Origin: Paragorgia papillata
Lineage: Eukaryota > Cnidaria > Anthozoa > Scleralcyonacea > Coralliidae
NCBI GenBank assembly: GCA_035771165.1
Contig: JAWNZC010000408.1
Location: forward strand, 1,054,001 to 1,118,000
Reading direction: 5' to 3'
Length of the DNA: 64,000 nucleotides
The position numbers and the translations under genes are program-made. Below the pieces are notes generated by a model. The model worked only from the letters and a program-made list of their open reading frames with translations, made no database searches and had not been told where the DNA came from. Below are positions 5,635 through 61,173 of the stretch, in pieces; position 1 is the first letter of the stretch, and every line of letters begins with the position of its first letter.

Positions 5635-5997
5635 TTCTTGTTTCCAGTTTTCCAAGTGGCTTTATTCCAGAAAGCATAGGAAGAGTCAAAGCTGGTGCAT
5701 AGCCAAAACGCGATTGATTATTACTTATTAGCTAAACTGACTCATCTCTGCTGGTTTTGTGACTGAATTTTCCATCCTTGCTCAGTTTTCGCGTTTTCCG
5801 TGGGTGTCAGACCCTCTGCCACCATGTATCAAAACGAAGTCATTTAAAGCACAACAACTTGAATGATCTTGTAAAATCACATACCTAAGGGTTTAAGATG
5901 GTCTACTTAGATATTGTAACAGAAGGTGTCGATTTCTTTCCAAATCTATCTTGGCCCGATCCATGACGGCGAAGGAGGAGAGTGCCCAGGTTCAACA

Positions 5998-6660
5998 TCT
6001 TGGCAAGATCTTGCAAGATCTTGCAAGATCTTGCCAAGATCTTGCCAAGACGTGGATCTTGGCAAGATCTTGGCAAGATCTTGGCAAGATCTTGCCAAGA
6101 TCCAAAAAATGATTTTCTTGCCATGATCTTGGCAAGATCTTGGCAAGATCTTGCCAAGATCTTGCTACGATCTTGCCAAGATTTTTATATATAATTTTAA
6201 TATGATCTTGCCAAGATCTTGCCAAGATCTTGCCAAGATCTTGCCAAGATCCAAAAATGATGTTCTTGCCATGATCTTGCCAAGATCTTGGCAAGATCTT
6301 GCTACGATCTTGCCAAGATTTTTATATATAATTTTAATATGATCTTGCCAAGATCTTGCTACGATCTTGCCAAGATTTTTATATATAATTTTAATATGAT
6401 CTTGCCAAGATCTTGCCAAGATCCAAAAATGATTTTCTTGCCATGATCTTGCCAAGATCTTGGCAAGATCTTGCTACGATCTTGCCAAGATTTTTATATA
6501 TAATTTTAATATGATCTTGCCAAGATCTTGCCAAGATTTTATGTATATTTCTTGCCAAGATCTCTATATTATGATCTGCCAAAGTTTGTCAGGAGTTTGT
6601 AACATATACTATATGACCTTTCCACAATCTTGTCATGATACGTACTGCCAAGATCGTGGT
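5998..6660. repeat. 11-bp palindromic satellite, array 1
   Basis: Tandem copies of an 11-bp unit (GCCAAGATCTT and its complement AAGATCTTGGC) built around the palindrome AAGATCTT. From about 6100 a higher-order unit appears: several 11-mers, CCAAAAATGATNTTCTTGCC, more 11-mers, GCTACGATCTTGCC, then a TTTTTATATATAATTTTAAT spacer (copies near 6180, 6318, 6376 and 6490). Because 11 is not a multiple of three and the unit is self-complementary, all six frames stay open for long stretches. Confidence 0.95.
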
Positions 6661-6969: not shown

Positions 6970-7101
6970 CATCACGTGCGTTGCCAGATGCCACGAGCTT
7001 GCCAACTGCATGCCAACACCCTGCATTCTTGTTCATAACTTTATCGTCGCGCCGCGTAAAATCTGCTCAGTCACTATACAGAATCGAGAGAAACGTTTGG
7101 A

Positions 7102-7138
7102 ATGACTTGCCGAACTATAGTAAATAAGACTTCTGAAG
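7102..7138 (+). CDS. Possible first coding exon
   Basis: ATG in the context TTTGGAATGA opens a 12-codon exon (MTCRTIVNKTSE plus one base) ending at a perfect donor, GAAG then GTAAGTTC. With the TATA-like box at 6960 this looks like the start of a plus-strand gene. The nearest downstream plus-strand coding exons are the BEN-domain exons at 10255 and 10997, so it may be exon 1 of that gene. At least one further exon would have to fix the reading phase, because this exon ends in phase 1 and the exon at 10255 starts in phase 0. Confidence 0.35.
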
Positions 7139-8255
7139 GTAAGTTCTTTGTTTGTTTTATATTACAACAGTTAACGAATCCGTATTATGTTTAAATCATA
7201 GACATCGTGTCATTTGCTCTCGGTTACCTCCTGCGCAGCGAACTAAAAAATGAACACCTGCCGGAGCGCAATCAATTTGAAATAGTAGTTCAAAACGAAA
7301 CTCTCCTTTTCTTCTGCATAATCATAATGTTAGCAAATGCTTAAACGTTATTTCGTGATAATGGTGACTCTCTGCGTCGAAGAGACAAAAACCGATTGGC
7401 GGTACAATTTGTTTCTATATATTTGACACCGCAGCCTGTATGCGTTAAAGCTTCCTTAGTTGGGTTTCAATATTCCGCCAAGTTGCCCGCTACAAAGACA
7501 AGTCGCACACAACGTTTGCTGTTATTACATATGAAAACATTCACTGCAATCAGATATAAGTATTTTGCTGCGACTCTATATCGTCTGTAAACTCAATCAA
7601 AGAGTGGCGCTACGCCAATATTATAAAGTATATTAATGAAAACCAAGACAATTTTCCGCTTTGGCTACAGTCAACTGTATTGTCGTGCGTTTACTTTATT
7701 CTTTAATCAATGTTTTCTTTCCATCGCATGTCTAATACTAACTGAACAACATGCGGCTCCAGAAAATTTATGATTCTGTTATTTTCAAAACAATGAAGAA
7801 ATTTTGGCAAGATGATTTTTTATATAGACTTAAATATAGTTTCTATGCCAACGGCTAATATGGATTAAAGGCTGCGAAAAGACAATCAAATAATCAATAG
7901 GTAACAAGACAAAGTTTGCGTGACGAAACGAATATTTCTCGCTAGTATACTGGTCAATAATCCCTCATAAACGTGGGTACATTTAAAAGAGTTATATAAC
8001 AGTGAACTGGTTTCATCATTACGTTCTATTTCGTCTATTTCTAGTAGCTGATGATTTGGATCATTACTTGTTTTATTTGAAGGGAAGTATTCTATTGCGA
8101 CAAGAAAACTTATCGCATGCAGTGACACGGAAATAGCGCTTGGCGCGTTATTAAAGGTGAAGGACAACGGGAAATTTTATATTGGATGCCTTATGAACAT
8201 AGGTACGTACGGGACATAAGATGATGAATAATGTATATAATAAAATAAATAGATT
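7139..8255. other. Probable intron, no element recognised
   Basis: AT-rich sequence after the donor at 7139. No convincing coding exon or repeat was found. Confidence 0.35.
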
Positions 8256-8276
8256 TGAATCTGATCTGAAAACGTT

Positions 8277-8320
8277 TTAAATTTTCAATCACTAAATGTG
8301 ATCTTCATCAGAGTTTTAAA
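8277..8320 (-). ncRNA. Degenerate hammerhead-like motif
   Basis: The minus strand has CTGATGA, then a stem GATCAC/GTGATT, then GAAA, which is the conserved half of a hammerhead core. The stem III and cleavage triplet are not convincing, so it is probably inactive. It marks a Penelope-type end. Confidence 0.45.
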
Positions 8321-8436
8321 AGATAAGAAGTAGGTACAATGCCAAGCTGTTAGGTAGCACTTTAATATGCGTTACTGTTTTTAGGAGTTTGAAATCAAGA
8401 TCTTTAGTTCGAACTCTTAAAAACAACACATGCATA

Positions 8437-8462
8437 TATATGCATATATATATATATATATA
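8437..8462. repeat. (TA)n tract
   Basis: Alternating TA dinucleotides next to the hammerhead at 8477-8518. Confidence 0.85.
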
Positions 8463-8476
8463 TTAAAAAAATGAAC

Positions 8477-8518
8477 GTTGCTACTCCGAGTTTCACGCGT
8501 TAGCGATCATCAGGCAAC
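8477..8518 (-). ncRNA. Hammerhead ribozyme (type I, minimal), HHR-A
   Basis: Read on the minus strand: stem I GTTGC, core CTGATGA, stem II CGC/GCG with loop TAAC and flanking U-U, core GAAA, tiny stem III CTCGGAG, cleavage site TA, and stem I return strand GCAAC. All core positions are present. The short stem III is typical of metazoan Penelope/retrozyme hammerheads. Relatives HHR-B (13750-13792) and HHR-C (14775-14817) keep the fold with compensatory stem I changes. Confidence 0.8.
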
Positions 8519-8607
8519 TGAAAAAAGTTTCACTTTAGCTTCTGTTTTGTATTGCGTGGCACGCGTGAGATCGCGGCACACGTGACATCACCGCACGCAA
8601 CATCACG

Positions 8608-8690
8608 TGACATCGGAGTAGCAACGTTCATATTTTTAAATAAAACCTATCTTGCTCTACCTTCAATAGTATCGAGCACTCTGTGGTCTA
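8608..8690 (+). other. 3' half of the HHR-A family
   Basis: CGGAGTAGCAACGTTCAT matches the 3' part of HHR-A (here on the plus strand) and is followed by CTCTACCTTCAATAGTATCG and AGCACTC. The latter is similar to CTCTACCTTTATGGTATTGA at 13867 downstream of the HHR-B palindrome. The CTGATGA half is absent, so it cannot cleave alone. Confidence 0.6.
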
Positions 8691-8711
8691 TTGTAAACGA
8701 CTACTTGAACT

Positions 8712-8740
8712 ATTATATATATATATATATATATATATAC
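8712..8740. repeat. (TA)n tract
   Basis: Alternating TA run. Confidence 0.85.
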
Positions 8741-8768
8741 TGTATATAGTTATATTTTATTTAATAAA

Positions 8769-8797
8769 ATGAACGTTGCTACTCCGAGTTTCACGCG
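8769..8797 (-). other. Second HHR-A family half
   Basis: ATGAACGTTGCTACTCCGAG plus TTTCACGCGTTA repeats 8471-8502 exactly and is then replaced by (TA)n at 8798. It is therefore a hammerhead cut off inside stem II. Confidence 0.7.
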
Positions 8798-8822
8798 TTA
8801 TATATATATATATATATATATT
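8798..8822. repeat. (TA)n tract
   Basis: Alternating TA run replacing the remainder of the truncated hammerhead. Confidence 0.8.
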
Positions 8823-9799
8823 TCTAAACCTCATTAATAATTCATGAGGAAAATTCAAAAGAAATTTATCTTTAATCAGTGCCTTTATAGTATGATATAA
8901 ACCCATTAATCTGTATATATATGTATAATCTATATATATATATATAATCTGTATATAAATGTGATATAGACACTGATGTTATATTAATCCGAGGTCTATA
9001 TCACATATATACTATGGGCACATGAGGTCTATATCGCATATATAGACACTTGTCCCTCAACAATCTCGACAAGGATACGAGAGGGAGAGGCAACTTTTAC
9101 TTGCAAACAAGCTGTTTCTTAGATGAGAACTTTATCCTCTTTGCCTTGAATCTCTTTTGTATCCCAGCGCATGCTCCAATCACCAGTATGATAATTTATA
9201 GCCTCTCACATTCGGTGATTGACTTGCTTTGTTCGGCTCGCGTCTATATACAATGATAAAGCACTCTGACTCGGTTTTTAAATGTTACTTCTATATATAA
9301 GAAGAAGAAGTATATATATATATATACTACCTAAGAGCTTGGCATATTATTGTACATATTTTTTTATCTTTTTAAAATCTGATGAAGATCACAGTAGCTA
9401 CTATCGGAAATTAAAAGCGGGCGAAGAGTTGTTACATTAATGTATTTCTCGTAGTAATACCCGGCAGTTTAGCACTGCTAGCTGCAACGCACTTTCAAAA
9501 AATGTTCATAGAACTACTGTAAAAGAATATTAAGAAAACATTTCTTGCTTGCCCATGATTGTTTGACATTGTTATATCTCAACGAAAAATGAGCAAGTAA
9601 TTTAATACACACATTTAATTAGTTTTTACTGTATCAAGAGCGGCAAATGGAGCAGTCAAATTTCACTAATCTAACACTATAAAGCCTATAAATTTCACAG
9701 CAGAACCGGAATGGTTCGTCAGAACGGTTCAGAACAGGTAACTTTTTTTTTGTAGTAAATCATGACATTAATTCTTTGAAAGTTTTCATGGTGATAATG

Positions 9800-9887
9800 T
9801 AATATAGATAAGTTTTGTGGAAACACCACGTAAAATTTGGGAGAAAAAAAATTATACGTGGTGTTTCCACAAAACTTATCTATATTA
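9800..9887. repeat. 88-bp near-perfect hairpin
   Basis: ATAGATAAGTTTTGTGGAAA and CACCACGT are followed, after a 24-bp loop, by their exact complement. The left arm and its upstream flank (CATGGTGATAATGTAATAT) recur at about 29490-29534 next to the HIRAN gene, so this is a mobile hairpin family. Confidence 0.8.
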
Positions 9888-10069
9888 TCGAATCAGTCTT
9901 ATCTCTCACTGATCCCTCCCTGGTTTGTCGATGTTCAGTTGTAGTTGTAAAAGATGTAAATCATAACATTCTTTTTCCACCAGTGCCAAGCATTGATAGT
10001 ATTTTTGGTAAGATATATACTCAAAATCACAGTTTTTTATGATTGCATTTGAAAAAACACATAATTAAC

Positions 10070-10180
10070 ATCTTTCGTAGAATTTCGTTTCCTTGCTTCA
10101 TTCTTGAGATATTCAGGTTTGTTTGATATGCAAATGTCATACTAATGACATCACACTTCATAATGACTTTTTACAAAAGT
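10070..10180. mobile_element. E1-type element fragment
   Basis: TTTCGTTTCCTTGCTTCATT, CTTGAGATATTCAGGTTTGT and TTGATATGCAAATG closely match the left arm of the large element at 26741-26790. Confidence 0.6.
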
Positions 10181-10254
10181 ATGATATCATTTTCTAAAAC
10201 TACAGTATTTAGTTCCTTCCATTTCTCATGTTCTTTACTACTTATATGTTGCAG

Positions 10255-10432
10255 TGGCATGGAGACATCAATTTCATGACAGTGAATGCACCACCAAAGG
10301 AACCTGGAAAATGTGCGATTAGGTTGTTGAGTTGCCTGTTCACAACTAATGAACTGGAAAGTGGAATTGTTTTCCACACAAGAAGATTCCCCAAAGTACC
10401 ACTGGATCCAGTGAGAGTGACAAAAATGTTTG
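10255..10432 (+). CDS. BEN-domain protein, penultimate exon
   Basis: The acceptor TATATGTTGCAG precedes an open exon that ends at the donor GTATGT. It encodes WHGDINFMTVNAPPKEPG, then the start of a BEN domain: KCAIRLLSCLFTTNEL, a variable part, then KVPLDPVRVTKMFG. BEN domains bind DNA or other proteins in nuclear chromatin regulators. The LL..LFT..EL and PLDP..V signatures with this spacing are diagnostic. The exon ends in phase 1 and joins the exon at 10997 in frame. Upstream exons are not certain; 7102-7138 may be the first. The paralog cannot be named. Confidence 0.75.
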
Positions 10433-10786
10433 GTATGTAATTTTCTACATTTAACCACAATTACTACAATTTTCTACAATTAACAGTGTGTTAGATAGCC
10501 AGTGCTAGACTAGGTGAATGGTGTTAGCTTCAAGGTATAATAAAAAATTAAGTATTTAACTTATATATATATAGCTACATCAGCATGTAATTTAGTATCG
10601 AAACTTTGGTGTGGTATATTGAAATAACAATAAAAAATTAAGTATATAACTTTAATATATTATTAAGTAATTTAACTTAAAATGTAATTTAGTACTGAAG
10701 TTTTGGTGTGGAATTATTGTTATAGTGCAATTAATAATGAAAAAGCTTTGAGTACTGATGTAACTTAATTAATTACAAGCTTTTAA

Positions 10787-10934
10787 GCTGGATTTTCACT
10801 AAGTGTAAAATGTCACGCGCTTGACTTTTCTATTGTACAAATTGAATAGTTTTCTACTTCATTTCACATGAAAACTCACAAGACAAAAGAAAAATGTCGA
10901 GCGTGCAACATTTTACACCTAGTGGAAATCCAGC
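10787..10934. mobile_element. TTAA-flanked MITE
   Basis: Inverted ends GCTGGATTTTCAC and GTGGAAATCCAGC, with inner TGTAAAATGT and ACATTTTACA, are flanked by TTAA at 10783-10786 and 10935-10938. TTAA duplication indicates a piggyBac- or Kolobok-type non-autonomous element. It lies within the last intron of the BEN gene. Confidence 0.75.
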
Positions 10935-10996
10935 TTAAGATGTGCCTTAGCAACTGGTACTGTGCTTATTCTATTTTTAAATATATTTTTATATAG

Positions 10997-11097
10997 ATGT
11001 CCTGAATGCCAAATATACTCCTGGAAAAACTAAAAAATGTCACCAGATGATTGTTGATGCATGCAATCAAAAATGCCGAGACACTCTGAGAAAATAA
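10997..11097 (+). CDS. BEN-domain protein, last exon
   Basis: Follows the acceptor TTTTTATATAG and continues the BEN domain in phase 1: DVLNAKYTPGKTKKC, then HQMIVDACNQKCRDTLRK and TAA. The terminal I.DACNQKCR motif is the expected last BEN helix. The stop falls six residues after the KCR motif, so the BEN domain is C-terminal. A poly(A) signal follows within 50 bases. With the previous exon this accounts for 92 residues. Confidence 0.75.
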
Positions 11098-11142
11098 AAA
11101 AGTGCTACTCAAACCACCATTAATACATGTACTAGCTGAATT

Positions 11143-11148
11143 AATAAA
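11143..11148 (+). terminator. Poly(A) signal AATAAA
   Basis: AATAAA 46 bases past the BEN gene stop. The mariner-type MITE begins just 13 bases later and may affect 3'-end position. Confidence 0.6.
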
Positions 11149-11160
11149 CCAGACCTGTTA

Positions 11161-11382
11161 CAGTCATTTGCAACTCACTTTTCACCCAAATCTTCGGAAG
11201 TTCGTTCGGAAGTTCGCAAGTTTGTTGGGAAGTTCGTTTTGAACTACGCATTTGATTGACTGCTAGGAACCAAGCAACCAATCAAATGCAGAGTTCAAAA
11301 TGAACACGAACTTCCAAATGAACTTGCGAACTTCAGAATGAACGTCTGAAGATTTGGGTGAAAAGTGAGTTGCAAATGACTG
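11161..11382. mobile_element. TA-flanked mariner-type MITE
   Basis: Near-perfect 35-bp inverted ends start CAGTCATTTGCAACTCAC and continue TTTTCACCCAAATCTTC. TA is present on both sides (11159-11160 and 11383-11384). No coding capacity. Confidence 0.85.
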
Positions 11383-11384
11383 TA

Positions 11385-11950
11385 TACATAGACCTCTTAG
11401 TAATAGAACCAATTCTCAACTTTCTTGTATTTTACTGTTGAATAACTTTTTAATTTATTTACTGTACAATGAGCCAGTGTTGGTGTATGACCAGTTATCT
11501 GGGGAAAGAGACTGTAAATATGCAACTTTAATTAATTGTCAGCAATATTCATCACTTTTCATTAAAATCTTTCAAAGATTACAAAGATACAAAAACCCAA
11601 ACATGAGATTTATTAAATTTGGCTTAAAAGTAAGCAGGTTTGTGGTCTCTCGCCACCATTACTTTGGTATTACTGGTCTACTTTTAACACCAAGCCAAGG
11701 CTTAGTTCTGATAACAAGGGCATGCATGGATGCTAACCTGCATTGACCTCATTCTTATTACATAATTTATTTTATACATTAATTGACATATTACATTGAT
11801 TTCATGAAAGTATAATATATAAATTTGATTCTGATTGTTAAGTTGTATTAATTTTCTCTGTCTAGATTGTGCTGTGATCTTAGAAGTATCTTGTCAGTCG
11901 TTTTTTGTCATGATTCAGGTTGTTCAGCTTCTGCAAGTTCTTGACAAATT
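11385..11950. other. Non-coding DNA
   Basis: AT-rich sequence. A 102-codon open frame at 11438 has no coding character I can support. Confidence 0.4.
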
Positions 11951-11954
11951 AATT

Positions 11955-12657
11955 GGAAGATCTTGCAAATTCTTGCCAATATCCTGTAAAATCATGCCAA
12001 GATCTTGCAAGTTCTTGCCAAGATCCTCCAAGATCCTGGCAAGATCTTGCCAAGATCCTGTAAGATCTTGGTAAGATCTTGTAAATTCTTGGCAAGATCT
12101 TGGCAAGATCTTGCAAGATCATGCCAAGATCTTGGGAAGAACATGCCAAGATCCTGTAAGATCACGGCAAGATCTTGCAAATTCTTGCCAAGATCTTGTA
12201 AGATCATGCCAAGATCTTGCCAAGATCATGCCAAGATCTTGCCAAGATCATGCCAAGATCTTGCCAAGATCATGCCAAGATCTTGCCAAGATCTTGCCAA
12301 GATCTTGCAAGATCCTGCAAATTCTTGCCAAGATCTTGAAAGATCTTGCCAAGATCCTGTAAGATCACGGCAAGATCTTGCAAATTCTTGCCAAGATCTT
12401 GTAAGATCATGCCAAGATCTTGCCAAGATCATGCCAAGATCTTGCCAAGATCTTGCCAAGATCATGCCAAGATCTTGCCAAGATCGTGCCAAGATCTTGC
12501 CAAGATCTTGCCAAGATCTTGCCAAGATCTTGCAAGATCCTGCAAGATCATGACAAGATCTTGCAGGATTTTTGGAAAATCTTGCCAAGATCTTGCCAAG
12601 ATCTTGCCAAGATCTTGCCAAGATCTTACCAAGATCTTGCCAAGATCTTGCCAAGAT
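11955..12657. repeat. 11-bp palindromic satellite, array 2
   Basis: About 60 copies of the same 11-bp unit as array 1 (GCCAAGATCTT), mostly in one orientation, with regular variants ATCATGCCAAG and ATCCTGNAAG, and a duplicated block (12120-12210 resembles 12350-12440). All six frames are open, which explains the 182-codon apparent protein with period ILPRSCQDLAK. Confidence 0.95.
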
Positions 12658-12659
12658 TC

Positions 12660-13065
12660 TGAACCTGGGTGGGTATAAACTCATTTCACAAAGAGAAAGT
12701 ACTGTAATGTTAGTGGCAGATTCATTGCAGAGGCGCATCTTTGGGTATTAGGGGCACTATGGAACCTAATTGATTCGAACTGTTGGTGAGTTTTACTGCT
12801 AGAGTGCCTGAAACTATTTGTAACATACTGTAGATTGTTATGCATAATTGGTGTGGAAGCCAATATTCCTGAGTTGAAGCAGAGTGTCATTAATAATGAC
12901 ATTACATGTAACTAGTTTTGGGTAACAACTATAGCTGCATTACCTGTACAGGTCAGTAATCCATATTCTGCAGCCCAGTACAAAGACCAGCACTGACAAG
13001 CACAGTCTGCAGGGTTGAGTAATCTACGACTCCACAACCATGCCCCAATATGCAACCATGAAGTT
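12660..13065. other. Non-coding DNA
   Basis: No gene or element recognised. Confidence 0.4.
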
Positions 13066-13068
13066 AGG

Positions 13069-13090
13069 TTGGGGGGGGGGGGGGGGGGGT
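13069..13090 (+). repeat. Poly(G) tract
   Basis: About twenty G in a row. It is prone to sequencing length error and can form quadruplexes. Confidence 0.85.
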
Positions 13091-13560
13091 GATACTGTAG
13101 CTGACAGTGGACTGGCAGCATTTCATCATTTAGACAGTCTGATGTACTTACCCTGCGAGTCAGAGCCCCTTTCCAACCTACACAAGCTTTGAACTCAACC
13201 TATGTCAGGTTTATGACTGGTCAAACAAGTTCTAGTTTACAAGCAAGAAAATAAAGTAACATGTTAGAGCATAGTACCAAAATAGTATCTTGGCAAATTC
13301 AGGCATGCTCAGAAAGAAATATATTGAGTTTGTTGGTAGAGCCCACTTTCCCCCAAAGCCTGCGTAGGTTGGATTAGAAATCTATTGCAATTTTAACAAT
13401 AGAATGTCAACAACATTCGCCAGTAAAAAACCCGGCTTTATCAAGGGCCACAGGAACAATAAGAGCCATCCCAGGCATCCCTAAGAGCTCATTTAATGTA
13501 AGGCCAAAGGTTAAAATTGTATTTTTCTCAAAGTTAAGTAAGTAATTTTAAAGAACAATC
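13091..13560. other. Non-coding DNA
   Basis: Unique-looking sequence without open frames worth reporting. Confidence 0.4.
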
Positions 13561-13561
13561 T

Positions 13562-13672
13562 GAACTTGATCCTATTGGCAGCATTATACATGTAACATTA
13601 ATAATATATATATCATATATATATATACATGTATATTATTAATGTTATAATGCTGCCAATAGGATCAAGTTC
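13562..13672. repeat. 111-bp near-perfect hairpin with TA-rich loop
   Basis: GAACTTGATCCTATTGGCAG plus CATTATA on the left matches TATAATGCTGCCAATAGGAT plus CAAGTTC on the right as its complement. Confidence 0.85.
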
Positions 13673-13715
13673 AGTTCAATATATATATACGTATATATAA
13701 TATATATATATATAG

Positions 13716-13855
13716 TATAGTTTAAGTGGGCTTACCTCAAAATGTTGAGTGTCACAACTGTCAGTTTCACGCAGGGCGATCTTCAGGTGACATGCCCCGC
13801 ATGAAACTGACAGTTGTGACACTCAACATTTTGAGGTAAGCCCACTTAAACTATA
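13716..13855. repeat. 140-bp hairpin containing HHR-B
   Basis: TATAGTTTAAGTGGGCTTAC and CTCAAAATGTTGAGTGTCAC are mirrored at 13814-13855 as the exact complement. The asymmetric centre carries the only CTGAAGA core, so only the minus strand encodes a full ribozyme. Confidence 0.85.
13750..13792 (-). ncRNA. Hammerhead ribozyme, HHR-B
   Basis: Minus strand: stem I TGTCAC, core CTGAAGA (position 7 is free in hammerheads), stem II CGC/GCG with loop CCT, core GAAA, stem III CTGACAG, cleavage site TT, stem I return GTGACA. Stem I has six pairs and differs from HHR-A at several positions on both strands together, which supports a selected fold. The GUU cleavage triplet is permitted but slower than GUC in known hammerheads. 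Confidence 0.75.
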
Positions 13856-13937
13856 CTCTATTCACTCTACCTTTATGGTATTGAGCACTTTCTGACATTC
13901 CGTGAACAAAATCACACATGCTCACTATATATATATA

Positions 13938-14238
13938 CCAGACTGTAAAGTTTGGTCTGCGCAGGGAACGCGTTCCCCGCGCAGAATTTTATGCCTGGAT
14001 TTCTGTCTGTGCATTATCAAGATTTGTCTAAGAATCCGTGCAGAATTTTTCTTATATCAACCCGTTACCCACGCATTTCTGACAAGAAGTAAAAAACTTT
14101 GTGAAATATGTTCGTGAATCTAACAAAATGTAGTAGTTATAGTAGTTATAAAATCTCTTCTTTAACAACCAAGAATCCTAAAAATTTTCCCACACCGCGT
14201 TACTGTTCCCCGCGCAAAAAAACAACTTTACAGTCTGG
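13938..14238. mobile_element. TA-flanked MITE family B, copy 1
   Basis: Inverted ends CCAGACTGTAAAGTTTG and CAACTTTACAGTCTGG inserted at TA within TATATA runs. GC-rich GGGAACGCGTTCCCCGCGC lies subterminally. A second copy is at 14853-15221. Confidence 0.8.
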
Positions 14239-14285
14239 TATATATATATATCATACGTGCTTGTTATATATATATATAGTTCAAT

Positions 14286-14328
14286 CTACAGACACGGTGT
14301 TTCGCTGTTCTACAGCTCATCAGTGTAG
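14286..14328 (-). ncRNA. Canonical hammerhead ribozyme, HHR-D
   Basis: Minus strand: stem I CTACA, core CTGATGA, a five-pair stem II GCTGT/ACAGC with triloop AGA, core GAAA, stem III CACCGTG, canonical cleavage triplet ending TC, and stem I return TGTAG. Every invariant hammerhead position is present and all stems pair without mismatch. It should self-cleave if transcribed. Short stem III and type I topology match the ribozymes known from Penelope-like elements and metazoan retrozymes. Confidence 0.88.
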
Positions 14329-14339
14329 CTTGGAACAAT

Positions 14340-14770
14340 CTGAATGAATTTCATCAATTACTTATATACATGCGATCGTCGCTGACAACAGCATGTGGGA
14401 CAGCATCGGTGAAGTACATTCAGATAGCGTGAAGTGCGCATGGGCCAGAGTGCCCAAACTTCCACAAGGGTAGTGAGCGTTGCATTATCGCTAATAGGTA
14501 CCCACGGCAACTTCACAGAGTGCTCAACAACACCGAAGTGAAGGAGTATATATATATATATGCTTATGCTTGGAAGAGAAGCTGTGCATTATGAAAGCTG
14601 ATAAGAACAAAATTTTAAATAAAAGATCGGAACTTGTCTCAAAATGTCGCCATCAGAACAGGGTCATCATTTCAAACACTTGCTGTGTGAAGAAAAAACT
14701 GAGATGCCACCAGGCCTCCCACGCACCATGACGAACTTTGCAAGATAAATGAAATCTAAGTCAGAACTCT
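14340..14770. other. Unique spacer between ribozymes
   Basis: About 430 bases between HHR-D and HHR-C with no open frame of note and a short (TA)n at 14548-14560. It could be part of a retrozyme-like unit. Confidence 0.35.
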
Positions 14771-14774
14771 CACA

Positions 14775-14817
14775 GTTACCTGAGGATCGCTATAGGCGTG
14801 AAACTCGGAGTAGTAAC
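14775..14817 (+). ncRNA. Hammerhead ribozyme, HHR-C
   Basis: Plus strand: stem I GTTAC, core CTGAGGA, stem II CGC/GCG with loop TATAG, core GAAA, stem III CTCGGAG, cleavage site TA, stem I return GTAAC. Compared with HHR-A the stem I pair G-C has become A-T on both strands, a compensatory change. It is opposite in orientation to the other three. Confidence 0.78.
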
Positions 14818-14852
14818 GAACTTATTTTAACTTTTATTTATCTATATATATA

Positions 14853-15219
14853 CCAGACTGTAATATTTGGTCCGCGCGGGGAACGCGTTCCCCGCGCAAT
14901 TTGTTCGTGATTAAAATCCGCCCGCGCAAAATTTAGTGCGGTCACTCAATCCGCGATTTATACTGAGAAATTAACAATTTCGACAAGATATGCTGTTAAT
15001 ACACATAGTTTAGTCCGGATTTCACTCAAAATGCTCTCAGAATGCCGGAATTCCCATCTCCAAGTAAGACAGTAGAATTCAAAAAATTACGGGTCACATG
15101 CTTCTGGGGCCCCTTAGATGGACGTGCCTGACGACCCGTGCGTATATATACCCCGCCGCCCGCGCAGAAATTGTATTATTATTTAACGTTCCCCGCGCAG
15201 AAAAAAAACTTTACAGTCT

Positions 15220-15221
<2 letters not shown>
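14853..15221. mobile_element. TA-flanked MITE family B, copy 2
   Basis: CCAGACTGTAATATTTGGTC on the left and ACTTTACAGTCTGG on the right, between TATA runs. Shares GGGAACGCGTTCCCCGCGC with copy 1. Confidence 0.8.

Positions 15222-15269
<48 letters not shown>
15222..15269. repeat. (TA)n microsatellite
   Basis: About 24 TA dinucleotides directly after MITE B copy 2. Confidence 0.9.
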
Positions 15270-15273
<4 letters not shown>

Positions 15274-15299
15274 CCTCATAAAAAAGATTCCTTAATTCT

Positions 15300-15780
15300 C
15301 ATCACCACCCAATGACCCAACCACGTTTCGTAAGGGAGGACCCGTGGCTCGGATCCACTATAAATTTAAATGCACTGATGTGTGTGAGTGTGACGAAATA
15401 GCAATTTAAACATGAATTGAAAACAATTTCTCATTTTATTCTATGGCCATTTTGATCTACAAATATATGCTGGTTTATCAAACTAGGAATCCGATTGTTA
15501 CCTGAATTCAGTTGATTATCATCATCTCTATTCTCCGATTCGATTTTACAACTGTTTCCATGTTTTCTTTCAAGTTTTTCGTCGGCCATCTTGGAAAATA
15601 CTGGTGTGTCATGGGGATCATTGAGAACATTTGGGAACACTTCGAAAATTCCCTCACATCTACCAGAAATTTGGGTGCCAGGTTTTGTTTTTTATTAAAT
15701 TTAGATTTACTTCAACTGCATAACCAATATTATTATATAGCGTGCTATCGGATATGAGCTTTTGCGTAATCTGATTGGTT
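15300..15780. other. Non-coding DNA
   Basis: No supported gene; the overlapping open frames at 15431-15757 have no recognisable features. Confidence 0.4.
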
Positions 15781-15786
15781 CCCTAC

Positions 15787-16135
15787 TACACACGTAAAAA
15801 CGCGCAAGCTGTTACAGACCTGCCAGCAAGTTGTTACAGGGCTGTTGAACAGGCTGTCACCGTCATGTGTTCGCACTGGCTGTCCCAAGTCTGTTAACAT
15901 GTCTGTAACAGGTTGTTGACAACTTGTAACAAGGCTGATGACTCCAACAGACTGTTGACAAGTTGTTCCAACAACCTGTTACCGCTCTGCACTCAACAAG
16001 TTGTTAACAGGTTGATGCTAACAAGGTTGTAGCAGCTTCTTGAATGAACAGCATTGTTACAACCTGTTCCCAGCCTTGCTACAAGCCTGATGCGAACACA
16101 TCCTGTTGACAGGCTGTGAGATTTTTGCGTGTGTA
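15787..16135. mobile_element. Element made of AACAGGTTGTT-like repeats
   Basis: Short inverted ends TACACACGTAAAAA and TTTTTGCGTGTGTA enclose 300 bp of loosely repeated, mutually complementary words such as AACAAGTTGTT, TGTTACAGG and CCTGTTACC. It can fold into many alternative hairpins. Flanks TATCGGATATGAGC and GCTCATATCCTG are themselves inverted, suggesting insertion into another palindrome. Confidence 0.6.
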
Positions 16136-40894: not shown

Positions 40895-41490
40895 ATCTTG
40901 ATAAAATAATATTTGAAGCTAAAGCAGCAAAAACATGCAGTGATATTTAACTTTTCGAAGTGTTTATAGAGCTAGTTTGTTTTGGAACAATGAGCAGCCT
41001 TAGTTTGTTCTACAATACTAGACCGATTGTTCTATGGCAAAGTTACACAATCGCCAGTCCAAGCCTGGTGTATGCATTAGCTTATATATAATCACTATAT
41101 ATATGGCTCATTCAGATTTAAAAGTCAAGTTCGTCATATCTTGTCACATTTTGTGCACTATCTTTACCAGGTCTTACAAATACGAAAGAAAACTTGCTTT
41201 GCGGTTGCACCGCCTTTGGTCTGTGTGGATTTTAACAAATGGCCCACACAAAACAGGCACTGCATGGTCTATAAAACCCATTAATCCACCCCAAAATATC
41301 TGTTCTGGTTCAACATCCACGGTACAGTTACGGTTGTTATGTTTCTTTCATGCAGGTAACCAAAAGCTGACATCTAAGACTGAAAAACTGAGTGGTCAGA
41401 CAGATATGCACATTACGGAGAATGTGAGACAAAATCTTTGACTCGCAACCTATATACCTTGGCGATCTATACATATATACCCCGCTGGGC
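40895..41490. other. Upstream region of the bHLH gene
   Basis: The open frame at 41034-41441 has no recognisable features and is not counted as a gene. Confidence 0.4.
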
Positions 41491-41494
41491 ACTA

Positions 41495-41508
41495 CTTATA
41501 TATATATT
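41495..41508 (+). promoter_or_regulatory. TATA box of the bHLH gene
   Basis: CTTATATATATATT about 90-100 bases before the ATG, followed by the GC-rich AGCCGCGCGGTGGCAGG. Spacing suits a short leader. Confidence 0.5.
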
Positions 41509-41596
41509 AGCCGCGCGGTGGCAGGTAATTCAACAACAAAAACAAGACGACATTGCCACGTACAAGAGCAGTCGAACAACTGCGTTTGAGTTCATC

Positions 41597-42016
41597 ATGC
41601 CCGAGAGAGACGATGAGGCCGTGCAAGTCAACGACGATGAGCAACAAGTGGCGGACACTAAACCGAAACAACGCAAGCGGCGTAGAAAACGAATGCTGAC
41701 CGGAATCAGTAAACAGCGACGATTGGCTAACGAGCGTGAGCGAAAAAGGCTTCAAGTGGTTAACACTGCTTTTGTTAGTCTCAAGAACGTTCTGCCGCTA
41801 AAGTCTGTGGACCAAAAGATCTCGCGGATCGAAATAGTGCGTTTAGCATCGAGACATATCGCCTCCCTAATGCAACTCTTACACCACAATGAGGATTTGC
41901 AAGACGACGAAGAACAAGAAAATTTTTGCTGCGACGATCAAATCACGACGAGCGACGAGGAAGCCGTACTCAATCTTGCCGAGTCTGATGATGAATCTGA
42001 CAGTCTAGCCCTGTAA
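41597..42016 (+). CDS. bHLH transcription factor, group A, paraxis/scleraxis-like
   Basis: An intronless frame of 139 residues. An acidic start is followed by a lysine/arginine-rich nuclear-targeting stretch (22-32). The bHLH domain follows: basic region RRLANERERKR (41-51, with E48 as the E-box contact), helix 1 VVNTAFVSLKNVLP (54-67), loop, and helix 2 KISRIEIVRLASRHIASLMQ (74-93). VNTAF..L...LP....D.K.S.IE..RLAS..I..L is the paraxis/scleraxis/TCF15 pattern. A highly acidic tail (94-139) may be an activation domain. The frame is open further upstream to 41438, but ATG 41597 (TCATCATGC) sits downstream of the TATA box and starts the conserved-looking protein. Family members dimerise with E proteins and bind CANNTG. 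Confidence 0.88.
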   Translation: MPERDDEAVQVNDDEQQVADTKPKQRKRRRKRMLTGISKQRRLANERERKRLQVVNTAFVSLKNVLPLKSVDQKISRIEIVRLASRHIASLMQLLHHNEDLQDDEEQENFCCDDQITTSDEEAVLNLAESDDESDSLAL

Positions 42017-54136: not shown

Positions 54137-54279
54137 CAATCTTGGACAATAATAGTTGTAACAGTCAACCCCTCCCCCCGATTCAATGTTGTTATATGAA
54201 ACTCCAGTCCAACATCGTTTCATTTCGGTCAACATTGAATCGGGGGGAGGGGGTGTTACAACATTATTGTCCAAGATTG
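54137..54279. repeat. 143-bp palindrome A, copy 1
   Basis: CAATCTTGGACAATAATAGT at the left pairs with AACATTATTGTCCAAGATTG at the right; the inner arms contain CCCCTCCCCCCGATTCAATG and its complement. Copies 2-4 are at 55862-56004, 57599-57741 and 60909-61051. Confidence 0.9.
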
Positions 54280-55861
54280 TCTTCGACTGATTTTTCTTAA
54301 TATTGTATAAAATACAGCTAAAATATGATTTCAATTTGTAAATTAAAGTCAATAAACAAATTGTAAAATTTGAGACTGTTTCGTGCAATTAGTAGAGAGA
54401 TATTTGCATTTAAAAATGTATAGATTGCGCTCTACTGCGAGGCCCTTTCTTTGTTACTCAATAATATCTACGTCACTAGAACAGTATTGCGAGAGAAAGT
54501 GCATTCTGTCGATGGAAAAAAATGTAGGTTTTGATACTTGGATAACGGTTGAAAGAGAGATGTATTTATAATATTACTATTGTTAAGATATGACGCTCAT
54601 ATTTCAGCCGTTGGTTGATATCTGAGCCCGCTTTAACTGAATCTATATCTGACATTATGACGATTAGGGAAAAACAAGCACGGTGTATTTCATTTCATAA
54701 TAGAACATTTTATTTAAGTTTAAAAATTATTTCCCCAGCTAATACCATCAATGAATTGTTAATGGGAGCATAATTATTTTTATATTAAGATTAATAACTT
54801 CCAAAACTACAGAAGACCCGCTACATTGTCGTTGGAAATTTGAGGAATTAACATATTGCGGCACGCGTTTTAGACGAAGCGAAATCTGGAATAGGTTGAA
54901 ATCATTCAATAAATAAATGTAAAGCTTAAGCCTCTTTTATAGAATGCTTGTAAAGCCACATTTATTCATATGCAGTTGGTTTAATTTCCCCTGCGCAATT
55001 ATACCGCCTTATCCAACGGTCTACCACGGTCTACCACGGTCTACCATGGGTTTCAAAGGGAATTACATGTATATTAATTTTGTTATATTGTAGTGGTAGA
55101 CCGTGGTAGACCGTGGTAGACCGTTGCATAAGGCGGTATATAATTGCGCAGGGGAAATTAAACCAACTACATATGAATAAATGTAGCTTTACAAGCATTC
55201 TATAAAAGAGGCTTAACTTTTACATTTATTTATTGAATGATTTCAACCTCTTCCAGATTTCGCTTCGTCTAAGACGCGTGCCGCAATACGTTAATTTCTC
55301 AAATTTCCAACGACAAGGTAGCGGGTCTTCTGTAGTTTTTGAAGCTATTAATCTTAATATAAAAATAATTATGCTCCCATTGACAATTCATTGATAGTTA
55401 GTATTAGCTGGGGAAATAATTTGTAAACTTAAATAAAATGTTCTATTATGAAATGAAATACACCGTGCCTGTTTTTCCCCAATCATCATAATGTCAGATA
55501 TAGATTCAGTTAAAGCGGGCTCAGATATACGGCTTAAATATGAGCGTCATATCTAAACAATAGTAATATTATAAATACATCTCTCTTTCAACAGTTATCC
55601 AAGTATCGAAACCTACATTTTTTCCACGGACAGAATGCGCTTTCTCTCGTAATACTGTTCTAGTGACGGAGATGTTATTGAGTAACGAAGAAAGGGCCTC
55701 GTATAGTAGGGCGCAATCTATACATTTTTAAACGCAAATATCTCTCTACTAATTGCACGAAACAGTCTCAAATTTCACAATTGGTTTATTGTCTTTAACT
55801 TACAAATTGAAATCATATTTTAGCTGTATTTTATACAATATTAAGAAAAATCAGTCAAGGA
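54280..55861. repeat. Large palindrome U1
   Basis: About 1.58 kb with arms of about 730 bp starting TCTTCGACTGATTTTTCTTA and ending with its complement. The centre (about 55010-55142) has three copies of ACGGTCTACC facing three of GGTAGACCGT around a 50-base loop. No gene. U3 and U4 are almost identical to it. Confidence 0.9.
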
Positions 55862-56004
55862 CAATCTTGGACAATAATAGTTGTAACAGTCAACCCCTCC
55901 CCCCGATTCAATGTTGTTATATGAAACTCCAGTCCAACATCGTTTCATTTCGGTCAACATTGAATCGGGGGGAGGGGGTGTTACAACATTATTGTCCAAG
56001 ATTG
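55862..56004. repeat. 143-bp palindrome A, copy 2
   Basis: Same sequence as copy 1. Confidence 0.9.
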
Positions 56005-57598
56005 TCTTCGACTGATTTTTCTTAATATTGTATAAAATACAGCTAAAATATGATTTCAATTTGTAAATTAAAGTCAATAAACAAATTGTAAAATTTGAGA
56101 CTGTTTCGTGCAATTAGTAGAGAGATATTTGCATTTAAAAATGTATAGATTGCGCTCTACTGCGAGGCCCTTTCTTCGTTACTCAATAATATCTACGTCA
56201 CTAGAACAGTATTGCGAGAGAAAGTGCATTCTGTCCGATGGAAAAAAATGTAGGTTTTGATACTTGGATAACGGTTGAAAGAGAGATGTATTTATAATAT
56301 TACTATTGTTTAAGATATGACGCTCATATTTAAGCCGTTGGTTGATATCTGAGCCCGCTTTAACTGAATCTATATCTGACATTATGACGATTAGGGAAAA
56401 ACAAGCACGGTGTATTTCATTTCATAATAGAACATTTTATTTAAGTTTACAAATTATTTCCCCAGCTAATACCATCAATGAATTGTTAATGGGAGCATAA
56501 TTATTTTTATATTAAGATTAATAACTTCCAAAACTACAGAAGACCCGCTACCTTGTCGTTGGAAATTTGAGGAATTAACATATTGCGGCACGCGTTTTAG
56601 ACGAAGCGAAATCTGGAATAGGTTGAAATCATTCAATAAATAAATGTAAAGCTTAAGCCTCTTTTATAGAATGCTTGTAAAGCCACATTTATTCATATGT
56701 AGTTGGTTTAATTTCCCCTGCGCAATTATATACCGCCTTATCCAACGGTCTACCACGGTCTACCACGGTCTACCATGGGTTTCAAAGGGAATTACATGTA
56801 TATTAATTTTGTTATATTGTAGTGGTAGACCGTGGTAGACCGTGGTAGACCGTTGCATAAGGCGGTATATAATTGCGCAGGGGAAATTAAACCAACTACA
56901 TATGAATAAATGTGGCTTTACAAGCATTCTATAAAAGAGGCTTAACTTTTACATTTATTTATTGAATGATTTCAACCTCTTCCAGATTTCGCTTCGTCTA
57001 AAACGCGTGCCGCAATACGTTAATTTCTCAAATTTCCAACGACAATGTAGCGGGTCTTCTGTAGTTTTTGAAGTTATTAATCTTAATATAAAAATAATTA
57101 TGCTCCCATTGACAATTCATTGATAGTTAGTATTAGCTGGGGAAATAATTTGTAAACTTAAATAAAATGTTCTATTATGAAATGAAATACACCGTGCTTG
57201 TTTTTCCCCAATCGTCATAATGTCAGATATAGATTCAGTTAAAGCGGGCTCAGATATCAACCAACGGCTGAAATATGAGCGTCATATCTTAACAATAGTA
57301 ATATTATAAATACATCTCTCTTTCAACCAGTTATCCAAGTATCGAAACCTACATTTTTTTCCACGGACAGAATGCGCTTTCTCTCGTAATACTGTTCTAG
57401 TGACGTAGATATTATTGAGTAACGAAGAAAGGGCCTCGTATAGTAGGGCGCAATCTATACATTTTTAAACGCAAATATCTCTCTACTAATTGCACGAAAC
57501 AGTCTCAAATTTTACAATTTGTTTATTGACTTTAATTTACAAATTGAAATCATATTTTAGCTGTATTTTATACAATATTAAGAAAAATCAGTCGAAGA
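56005..57598. repeat. Large palindrome U2 (divergent copy)
   Basis: Same structure as U1 but with private differences: TTTCTTCGTTACTC instead of TTTCTTTGTTACTC, CTGTCCGATGG instead of CTGTCGATGG, and a right arm that keeps GATATCAACCAACGGCTG where U1, U3 and U4 have GATATACGGCTTAAA. Its arms are the most symmetrical of the four. Confidence 0.9.
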
Positions 57599-57741
57599 CA
57601 ATCTTGGACAATAATAGTTGTAACAGTCAACCCCTCCCCCCGATTCAATGTTGTTATATGAAACTCCAGTCCAACATCGTTTCATTTCGGTCAACATTGA
57701 ATCGGGGGGAGGGGGTGTTACAACATTATTGTCCAAGATTG
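57599..57741. repeat. 143-bp palindrome A, copy 3
   Basis: Same sequence as copy 1. Confidence 0.9.
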
Positions 57742-59322
57742 TCTTCGACTGATTTTTCTTAATATTGTATAAAATACAGCTAAAATATGATTTCAATTTG
57801 TAAATTAAAGTCAATAAACAAATTGTAAAATTTGAGACTGTTTCGTGCAATTAGTAGAGAGATATTTGCATTTAAAAATGTATAGATTGCGCTCTACTGC
57901 GAGGCCCTTTCTTTGTTACTCAATAATATCTACGTCACTAGAACAGTATTGCGAGAGAAAGTGCATTCTGTCGATGGAAAAAAATGTAGGTTTTGATACT
58001 TGGATAACGGTTGAAAGAGAGATGTATTTATAATATTACTATTGTTAAGATATGACGCTCATATTTCAGCCGTTGGTTGATATCTGAGCCCGCTTTAACT
58101 GAATCTATATCTGACATTATGACGATTAGGGAAAAACAAGCACGGTGTATTTCATTTCATAATAGAACATTTTATTTAAGTTTAAAAATTATTTCCCCAG
58201 CTAATACCATCAATGAATTGTTAATGGGAGCATAATTATTTTTATATTAAGATTAATAACTTCCAAAACTACAGAAGACCCGCTACATTGTCGTTGGAAA
58301 TTTGAGGAATTAACATATTGCGGCACGCGTTTTAGACGAAGCGAAATCTGGAATAGGTTGAAATCATTCAATAAATAAATGTAAAGCTTAAGCCTCTTTT
58401 ATAGAATGCTTGTAAAGCCACATTTATTCATATGCAGTTGGTTTAATTTCCCCTGCGCAATTATACCGCCTTATCCAACGGTCTACCACGGTCTACCACG
58501 GTCTACCATGGGTTTCAAAGGGAATTACATGTATATTAATTTTGTTATATTGTAGTGGTAGACCGTGGTAGACCGTGGTAGACCGTTGCATAAGGCGGTA
58601 TATAATTGCGCAGGGGAAATTAAACCAACTACATATGAATAAATGTAGCTTTACAAGCATTCTATAAAAGAGGCTTAACTTTTACATTTATTTATTGAAT
58701 GATTTCAACCTCTTCCAGATTTCGCTTCGTCTAAGACGCGTGCCGCAATACGTTAATTTCTCAAATTTCCAACGACAAGGTAGCGGGTCTTCTGTAGTTT
58801 TTGAAGCTATTAATCTTAATATAAAAATAATTATGCTCCCATTGACAATTCATTGATAGTTAGTATTAGCTGGGGAAATAATTTGTAAACTTAAATAAAA
58901 TGTTCTATTATGAAATGAAATACACCGTGCCTGTTTTTCCCCAATCATCATAATGTCAGATATAGATTCAGTTAAAGCGGGCTCAGATATACGGCTTAAA
59001 TATGAGCGTCATATCTAAACAATAGTAATATTATAAATACATCTCTCTTTCAACAGTTATCCAAGTATCGAAACCTACATTTTTTCCACGGACAGAATGC
59101 GCTTTCTCTCGTAATACTGTTCTAGTGACGGAGATGTTATTGAGTAACGAAGAAAGGGCCTCGTATAGTAGGGCGCAATCTATACATTTTTAAACGCAAA
59201 TATCTCTCTACTAATTGCACGAAACAGTCTCAAATTTCACAATTGGTTTATTGTCTTTAACTTACAAATTGAAATCATATTTTAGCTGTATTTTATACAA
59301 TATTAAGAAAAATCAGTCAAGG
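57742..59322. repeat. Large palindrome U3
   Basis: Nearly base-for-base identical to U1. It joins U4 directly at AAGGACTGTCTTCGACTG, with palindrome A missing. Confidence 0.9.
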
Positions 59323-59328
59323 ACTGTC

Positions 59329-60908
59329 TTCGACTGATTTTTCTTAATATTGTATAAAATACAGCTAAAATATGATTTCAATTTGTAAATTAAAGTCAAT
59401 AAACAAATTGTAAAATTTGAGACTGTTTCGTGCAATTAGTAGAGAGATATTTGCATTTAAAAATGTATAGATTGCGCTCTACTGCGAGGCCCTTTCTTTG
59501 TTACTCAATAATATCTACGTCACTAGAACAGTATTGCGAGAGAAAGTGCATTCTGTCGATGGAAAAAAATGTAGGTTTTGATACTTGGATAACGGTTGAA
59601 AGAGAGATGTATTTATAATATTACTATTGTTAAGATATGACGCTCATATTTCAGCCGTTGGTTGATATCTGAGCCCGCTTTAACTGAATCTATATCTGAC
59701 ATTATGACGATTAGGGAAAAACAAGCACGGTGTATTTCATTTCATAATAGAACATTTTATTTAAGTTTAAAAATTATTTCCCCAGCTAATACCATCAATG
59801 AATTGTTAATGGGAGCATAATTATTTTTATATTAAGATTAATAACTTCCAAAACTACAGAAGACCCGCTACATTGTCGTTGGAAATTTGAGGAATTAACA
59901 TATTGCGGCACGCGTTTTAGACGAAGCGAAATCTGGAATAGGTTGAAATCATTCAATAAATAAATGTAAAGCTTAAGCCTCTTTTATAGAATGCTTGTAA
60001 AGCCACATTTATTCATATGCAGTTGGTTTAATTTCCCCTGCGCAATTATACCGCCTTATCCAACGGTCTACCACGGTCTACCACGGTCTACCATGGGTTT
60101 CAAAGGGAATTACATGTATATTAATTTTGTTATATTGTAGTGGTAGACCGTGGTAGACCGTGGTAGACCGTTGCATAAGGCGGTATATAATTGCGCAGGG
60201 GAAATTAAACCAACTACATATGAATAAATGTAGCTTTACAAGCATTCTATAAAAGAGGCTTAACTTTTACATTTATTTATTGAATGATTTCAACCTCTTC
60301 CAGATTTCGCTTCGTCTAAGACGCGTGCCGCAATACGTTAATTTCTCAAATTTCCAACGACAAGGTAGCGGGTCTTCTGTAGTTTTTGAAGCTATTAATC
60401 TTAATATAAAAATAATTATGCTCCCATTGACAATTCATTGATAGTTAGTATTAGCTGGGGAAATAATTTGTAAACTTAAATAAAATGTTCTATTATGAAA
60501 TGAAATACACCGTGCCTGTTTTTCCCCAATCATCATAATGTCAGATATAGATTCAGTTAAAGCGGGCTCAGATATACGGCTTAAATATGAGCGTCATATC
60601 TAAACAATAGTAATATTATAAATACATCTCTCTTTCAACAGTTATCCAAGTATCGAAACCTACATTTTTTCCACGGACAGAATGCGCTTTCTCTCGTAAT
60701 ACTGTTCTAGTGACGGAGATGTTATTGAGTAACGAAGAAAGGGCCTCGTATAGTAGGGCGCAATCTATACATTTTTAAACGCAAATATCTCTCTACTAAT
60801 TGCACGAAACAGTCTCAAATTTCACAATTGGTTTATTGTCTTTAACTTACAAATTGAAATCATATTTTAGCTGTATTTTATACAATATTAAGAAAAATCA
60901 GTCAAGGA
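59329..60908. repeat. Large palindrome U4
   Basis: Nearly identical to U1 and U3. Begins after a junction where a copy of A was lost down to a few bases. Confidence 0.9.
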
Positions 60909-61051
60909 CAATCTTGGACAATAATAGTTGTAACAGTCAACCCCTCCCCCCGATTCAATGTTGTTATATGAAACTCCAGTCCAACATCGTTTCATTTCGG
61001 TCAACATTGAATCGGGGGGAGGGGGTGTTACAACATTATTGTCCAAGATTG
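60909..61051. repeat. 143-bp palindrome A, copy 4
   Basis: Same as copy 1; followed directly by Tigger sequence TGCCTTATGCGACCAG. Confidence 0.9.
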
Positions 61052-61173
61052 TGCCTTATGCGACCAGCGACCACTTTTTTTTTTCCCAACAAGAAATTTA
61101 CCTGTTATGAGCAACCATTTCATATTAAAAGCTGGCACTATGTAAATAAAATACAGGATGGTGGGACGGATAA

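Follow-up and report, generated by a model that had tools for sequence, protein, structure and literature searches.

Hammerhead motifs in the window

The window analyzed here, a 64-kb stretch of the Paragorgia papillata genome (contig JAWNZC010000408.1), carries four complete type I hammerhead ribozyme motifs, all within 8.4–14.9 kb of its length. Three of them (A, B, and C) probably mark the 3′ ends of truncated Penelope-like elements (PLEs), and the fourth (D) has the layout of a metazoan retrozyme. A (8477–8518, minus strand), B (13750–13792, minus, counting a sixth U-A pair; 13751–13791 without it), and C (14775–14817, plus, with a predicted cut after 14812) were recovered by a descriptor scan permitting one stem II mismatch, at the places where they had originally been predicted. 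The fourth match is D (14286–14328, minus), which is canonical. Four matches compare with a mean of 0.01 and a maximum of 1 in 200 dinucleotide shuffles.

All four motifs display the parts of a type I hammerhead (CUGANGA, stem II, GAAA, stem III, H17, and stem I), with a U-U mismatch at stem II in A–C. CTGANGA, the U-CGC...GCG-U stem II, GAAA, and H17 are kept in each of A, B, and C, and their stem III consists of 3 bp with a 3-nt loop (ACT-NNN-AGT), in agreement with the original prediction, which also gave the stem I variants as GTTGC/GCAAC, GTCAC/GTGAC, and GTTAC/GTAAC. As motifs, A, B, and C are real; self-cleavage is predicted from their sequence. A covariance model built from A–D found no complete copy in the window beyond its own four sequences, Rfam returned nothing at gathering score on the window (top hammerhead match HH9, 25.4 bits, on D), and a tiny-stem-III pattern had no match in genome_contigs.

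Two half copies, expected near 8608 and 8769, lie at 8613–8639 (plus, antisense to the 3′ part of A) and 8779–8796 (minus). The downstream word said to be shared by the copies is also present: on the same strand, the flanks of A and B align with a local score of 31, above the maximum of 27 in 500 shuffles. The scores of other flank comparisons were equaled by 10 to 369 of 500 shuffles, and that between the flank of B and the reverse complement of D by none of 500, which is the reason why the tails of the PLEs were later compared with D.

If A and B are extremely truncated insertions with two arms joined head-to-head, as their arrangement indicates, with little left beyond the ribozyme ends, the half copies are explained, and so is the shared word. 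The left arm of element A (8464–8520, minus) is a PLE 3′ end with the complete hammerhead and a short, 18-nt tail ending in (TA)n, bounded on its left by a (TA)n array at 8444–8463. It is separated by a center of ~92 bp (8521–8612), delimited by comparison with two related genomic loci (L076 and L079), from an inverted right arm (8613–8713, plus), whose hammerhead is truncated at stem III and whose long, 93-nt tail contains a sequence box at ~8673–8685 and also ends in (TA)n. A', a separate PLE 3′-end fragment (8740–8798, minus) with a hammerhead cut in stem II and a 40-nt tail, sits between two further arrays (8714–8739 and 8799–8820). Element B repeats this architecture, with hammerhead B and a short, 41-nt tail in the left arm (13715–13791, minus) and a long, 110-nt tail with the box in the inverted right arm (13799–13925, plus), which is without the 5′ half of the hammerhead; both tails end in (TA)n (arrays at 13700–13713 and 13926–13937). 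The shared word of the original prediction belongs to the long tail that each of A and B has. Element C is a one-arm insertion with PLE coding sequence, its short tail of 30 nt (14813–14842, plus) running up to the array at 14843–14852.

Genome-wide copies and the associated protein

To place these elements, the genome (617.9 Mb in 473 contigs) was searched by pattern. The exact core CTGANGATCGC-N(2-12)-GCGTGAAACT has 1,998 matches (1,007 forward, 991 reverse) and none for a reversed-pattern control. The statistics given below on genomic copies of this core rest on the first 100 of the 1,998 in contig order, all of which were examined. AGT plus H17 is kept in 85 of these 100, with at least three consecutive stem I pairs in 67 of the 85 and at least four in 31.

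Copies of the motif are associated with coding sequence. In element C, 40 residues of a PLE protein are encoded at 14561–14680 (plus), matching positions 543–582 of a 587-position profile built from 24 database homologs (independent E-value 2.1e-12), and the hammerhead starts 94 nt past these last codons. By the same profile, 37 of the 100 genomic copies have PLE coding sequence on the motif's own strand, upstream of it and ending 21–352 nt before it; in 6 it lies downstream. The proposal of a dispersed mobile unit is supported.

The open frame at genomic locus L071 has 1,162 database homologs at E ≤0.001. It contains a YRDD reverse transcriptase, a cysteine-rich region, and then YIG, motifs that we take to be those of Penelope; YRDD and other columns are invariant across the 24 homologs. 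Foldseek and VIA both assign a reverse transcriptase fold to the model of one homolog (P0034, pLDDT 80), as expected of an endonuclease-containing (EN+) Penelope-like element. The region after the reverse transcriptase, with conserved Y-x-A ... YxG ... FKxR ... H ... E columns, adopts a beta-beta-alpha-alpha-beta order when modeled alone (pLDDT 84). In the reading favored here, the protein would be a reverse transcriptase joined to a probable GIY-YIG endonuclease.

We favor, at a probability of roughly 85%, the reading that A, B, and C represent the 3′ termini of truncated PLEs whose terminal repeat bears a hammerhead of type I, with stem III short and a U-U mismatch at the base of stem II. 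Their protein would cut AT-rich DNA, often (TA)n, and reverse-copy its own RNA, starting at either of two sites immediately 3′ of the hammerhead and leaving a short or a long tail; copying would usually stop early, truncating the 5′ end, and a second, inverted copy would often be joined head-to-head. Where transcripts are tandem or read through, the ribozyme itself presumably cuts them at the terminal repeat.

Tails and paired arms

The tails of the copies often end at TA arrays. Four or more TA units follow the predicted cut within 60 nt in 50 of the 100 copies and within 200 nt in 85; for random positions in the same loci, (TA)n occurs within 60 nt in 12.8%. The 85 tails fall into two lengths: the 53 that lack a GAGCACT-type box have a median of 35 nt, and the 32 that contain it have a median of 104 nt.

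The copies are also frequently paired in inverted orientation. Among adjacent units, whether complete or half, that lie no more than 1,500 bp from one another, 24 pairs are divergent, 10 convergent, and 2 tandem, and 17 of the 24 divergent pairs are only 14–85 bp apart. A pattern for close back-to-back pairs has 165 + 172 matches, in which each pair is counted up to twice, and none in the control. Where the units of an inverted pair are 0.3–3.2 kb apart, one arm or both contain open frames directed outward to the hammerhead. Several traits expected of EN+ Penelope elements are found here: 5′ truncation, an optional tail on terminal repeats that are either direct or inverted, and AT-rich targets. 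The PLE pairs at L070 (1–7501) and L071 (1–4601) are palindromic beyond their TA arrays too, unlike the short pairs. At many of the close-pair loci listed, the same palindrome center (CAGGCGGCTGAAG or its reverse complement) recurs.

Palindromes that are short and flanked by TA arrays, some with identical centers at several listed loci as if the palindrome itself had been copied, would also be expected if these were palindromic elements with terminal inverted repeats (TIRs), resembling miniature inverted-repeat transposable elements and moved by a DNA transposase, with the hammerhead a mere passenger in the repeats. We consider this very improbable, given that the pairs 0.3–3.2 kb apart carry PLE coding sequence in one or both arms with differing truncation points. 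Moreover, no inverted partner was detected for 58 of the 100 motifs (37 with short tails, 12 with long, 9 with neither), and the arm ends are commonly unequal. Head-to-head pairs with up to 3.5 kb between them number 26, and in 19 of these both tails could be classed: 14 are short + long, 3 long + long, and 2 short + short. Since the arms end at (TA)n, any TA target-site duplication would be unreadable.

The mixed pairs bear in turn on how a second arm arises within the PLE reading. A count of 14 in 19 was matched or exceeded in 1,220 of 20,000 permutations; the pairs A and B of the window are both short + long, and adding them gives 16 of 21 (541 of 20,000 permutations). The excess of mixed tails is suggestive only. 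One route to head-to-head pairs, proposed for rotifers in the excerpted text of PMC3846280, is self-priming of a single cDNA on its antisense template in place of starts on both DNA strands. The abundance of close palindromes (the 17 divergent pairs above) and their recurring centers speak for this route, yet each folded-back cDNA would be expected to have one tail type, whereas most classed pairs have two, on a statistic that is itself weak. We rate self-priming as a live alternative, at not far short of even odds.

Neighboring element D and the retrozyme alternative

Retrozymes are small non-autonomous elements amplified via hammerhead-cut circular RNAs, and the original prediction raised this identity for A–C. 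D (14273–14554, minus) is a single unit of a tandem retrozyme with a 277-bp period; it has 95% identity to the tandem unit at genomic locus L078, and (TA)n arrays lie at 14265–14278 and 14547–14560. The core of the D family has 5,043 matches genome-wide (2,249 + 2,794) and none in the control. Of the 56 adjacent pairs in 100 listed copies of the 5,043, 51 are in tandem, and 32 of these 51 are spaced 276–280 bp. Such constant-size direct tandems bounded by hammerheads are expected of a retrozyme, and it is D that, by layout, is what had been expected of A–C.

The tandem monomers of constant size that were to be sought for A/B/C are not seen: only 2 of 36 adjacent pairs among the 100 listed copies are tandem, with spacings of 236 and 536 bp. 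Several local features do fit a retrozyme, including the half (A') and full hammerheads at locus A in direct orientation 298 bp apart, the adjoining D, and the sizes of elements A and B (~250 and ~210 bp), which lie within the 170–400 nt given for retrozymes in the excerpted text of PMC7229834. The orientation data largely refute this identity, and same-strand PLE coding sequence lies upstream of the motifs instead; the antisense half copies in A and B are, to judge from the relatives L076 and L079, the other arm of a head-to-head pair. That A/B/C are metazoan retrozymes is, in our estimate, highly unlikely.

A retrozyme dimer at locus A (an A'–A circle) was considered and dropped, the inverted segment being seen in genomic copies as the arm of a head-to-head insertion. 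Upon in silico folding of this circle, the hammerhead would be blocked by the inverted segment (free-energy difference, ddG, 30.3 compared with 7.0–9.2 kcal/mol with the segment shuffled, n = 20); the locus A 1.1-mer shows no block (ddG 11.4 compared with 10.7–13.3, shuffled, n = 20). B is blocked too (ddG 50.1 compared with 5.2–8.3 with the upstream part shuffled, n = 20), and C and D are unblocked. Blocking by an inverted arm may be a by-product. Part of element A, searched against plasmids, gave no match.

A possible box in common between D and the longer PLE tails

A box, approximately CGCTCTAC...GTATTGAGCRCTCT (CGCTC...GTATTGAGCRCTCT), recurs some tens of nucleotides past the hammerhead cut wherever the long tail was compared, in eight PLE families (those of A and B and six from the genomic copies examined), and the stretch between hammerhead and box varies across the eight. 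The D unit contains CGCTCC...GTTGAGCACTCT 39–50 nt past its cut, in the same orientation as the PLE box. In a comparison of the eight tails with D, the same-orientation scores were reached by 3, 4, 5, 12, 22, 180, 248, and 257 of 1,000 shuffles, and those in the opposite orientation by 66 to 809 of 1,000; statistical support for a shared box is uneven. D in the window is one lap of the unit, starting and ending in TA just after TGTAGATTGAAC and before the box, and short PLE tails likewise end in (TA)n just before the box position.

These observations raise the possibility that the PLE and the retrozyme share a signal for the start of reverse transcription, and that one PLE machinery starts there on its own RNA and on that of the retrozyme. 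Starts would often occur on the two strands of a (TA)n target alike, which would yield PLE pairs that are head-to-head and whose tails are unequal. We put this forward tentatively and regard it as doubtful on balance; if true, PLE enzymes would also have moved the retrozyme.

Stem I covariation and points weighing against the PLE assignment

The original prediction took compensatory changes in stem I as a sign of selection for the fold. Among the few copies in the window, the changes are there. Two stem I pairs are altered on both sides among A–C alone, and in an alignment of A–D both sides have changed in 7 of 12 pairs, including 4 of the 5 in stem I; the values observed for the whole structure were reached by none of 500 shuffles, in a test with only four sequences and a structure derived from the same four. 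A 28-copy genomic subset gives a Fisher P of 0.0016, uncorrected for relatedness. Over the 100 genomic copies the compensatory pattern is not seen, with a mean of 3.69 of 5 stem I pairs compared with 3.65 (maximum 3.8) for shuffled partners. Full pairing is present in 32 of the 100; GCCGC/GCGAC, the combination seen most often (23 of 100), includes a C.A mismatch. With pairing no better than for shuffled partners, the genome-wide data do not show selection for the fold.

This covariation result and the imperfect stem I of many genomic copies weigh against the PLE reading, as do several further points. No PLE coding sequence was found for 63 of the 100 motifs in the stretch searched (many stretches being 3 kb or less), and A and B have none. 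A six-frame Pfam search of 7001–16000 of the window found nothing; in the genomic frames no reverse transcriptase or GIY-YIG domain exceeded the Pfam cut-off, the best match being T5orf172 (E 0.1). Telomerases top both structure lists, with group II intron reverse transcriptases within 1 Z unit in VIA, and the database homologs that have names are uncharacterized proteins. The designation of the protein as a PLE protein leans on its modeled fold, motifs taken to be those of Penelope, and layout. The recurring palindrome centers suggest that some palindromes are copied as units, which two-strand priming alone leaves unexplained. Finally, PLE hammerheads are usually minimal and without helix III, according to the excerpted texts of PMC7761336 and PMC6155905, whereas A/B/C have a helix III of 3 bp.

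Comparison with known elements

On the favored reading, A/B/C belong to a known kind of element, whose layout is already in print for rotifer Penelope. As excerpted, the report on Adineta vaga (PMC3846280) describes EN-containing Penelope elements with inverted pseudo-long terminal repeats (pLTRs) placed head-to-head, palindromes at the junctions, AT-rich targets, and a 31-bp tail that is optional on one of the inverted pLTRs. The tails here differ by ~58–86 nt as opposed to these 31 bp, and the excerpted text makes no mention of hammerheads, of which thousands of cores are present here.

A second close parallel is Poseidon PAc of the lizard Anolis carolinensis, likewise a PLE with a pLTR hammerhead, AT-rich cutting, and two reverse transcription starts matching its tails (PMC11167929). 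The excerpted text reports that its protein cuts and extends both strands, that two internal starts match the genomic tail, and that its hammerhead cleaved only with protein present, with hammerhead mutants still inserting in vitro. The PAc hammerhead overlaps the start of the open reading frame; those described here differ in their U-U at the stem II base and their 3-bp stem III.

With metazoan retrozymes, as described in PMC7229834, A/B/C share the type I hammerhead, and the U-U mismatch at the helix II base is found in axolotl HHR_Amex2 as well; A/B/C differ in being without constant-size tandems and linked to PLE coding sequence, and it is D whose layout fits. The same text names PLEs as candidate movers of retrozymes. 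Viral sequences of IMG/VR contain the U-CGC...GCG-U stem II too, with 40 matches spread over 39 contigs; by descriptor, 25 of the 40 also have stems I and III. Their other stems and their genomes differ, and we claim no common descent. Because of these viral matches and HHR_Amex2, the U-U pair beside stem II is no oddity. The literature searches turned up no report of this PLE hammerhead family, specialist PLE-hammerhead variants being outside the comparison.

The genome holds thousands of marked PLE 3′ ends alongside a classical retrozyme. With inverted arms, tail lengths, and a shared box that can be scored, the question of how head-to-head Penelope copies are made becomes testable, as does that of which enzyme moves animal retrozymes. 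An inverted half-hammerhead need not signal a circular-RNA element, which corrects a plausible misreading of such loci.

Other features of the window

Two related TIR elements lie in TA arrays at 13938–14240 and 14851–15222, with ends CCAGACTGTAAAGTTTGG and its inverse and 93% likeness over 56 bp at the left end; the first lies at the (TA)n closing the long tail of element B. A minisatellite with an 11-bp unit (AAGATCTTGCC) occupies 11957–12657 (region 11930–12657), and a stretch ~75% alike is found at 5990–6560. Direct and inverted repeats of ~1.73 kb lie at 54137–61057, the direct copies being 98–99.9% identical, with strong hairpins. A basic helix-loop-helix gene (41384–42016, plus; Pfam HLH) has 26 database relatives, the sole named one being from the octocoral Paramuricea clavata, which on this one gene points to a probably anthozoan host; the gene resembles transcription factor 15.

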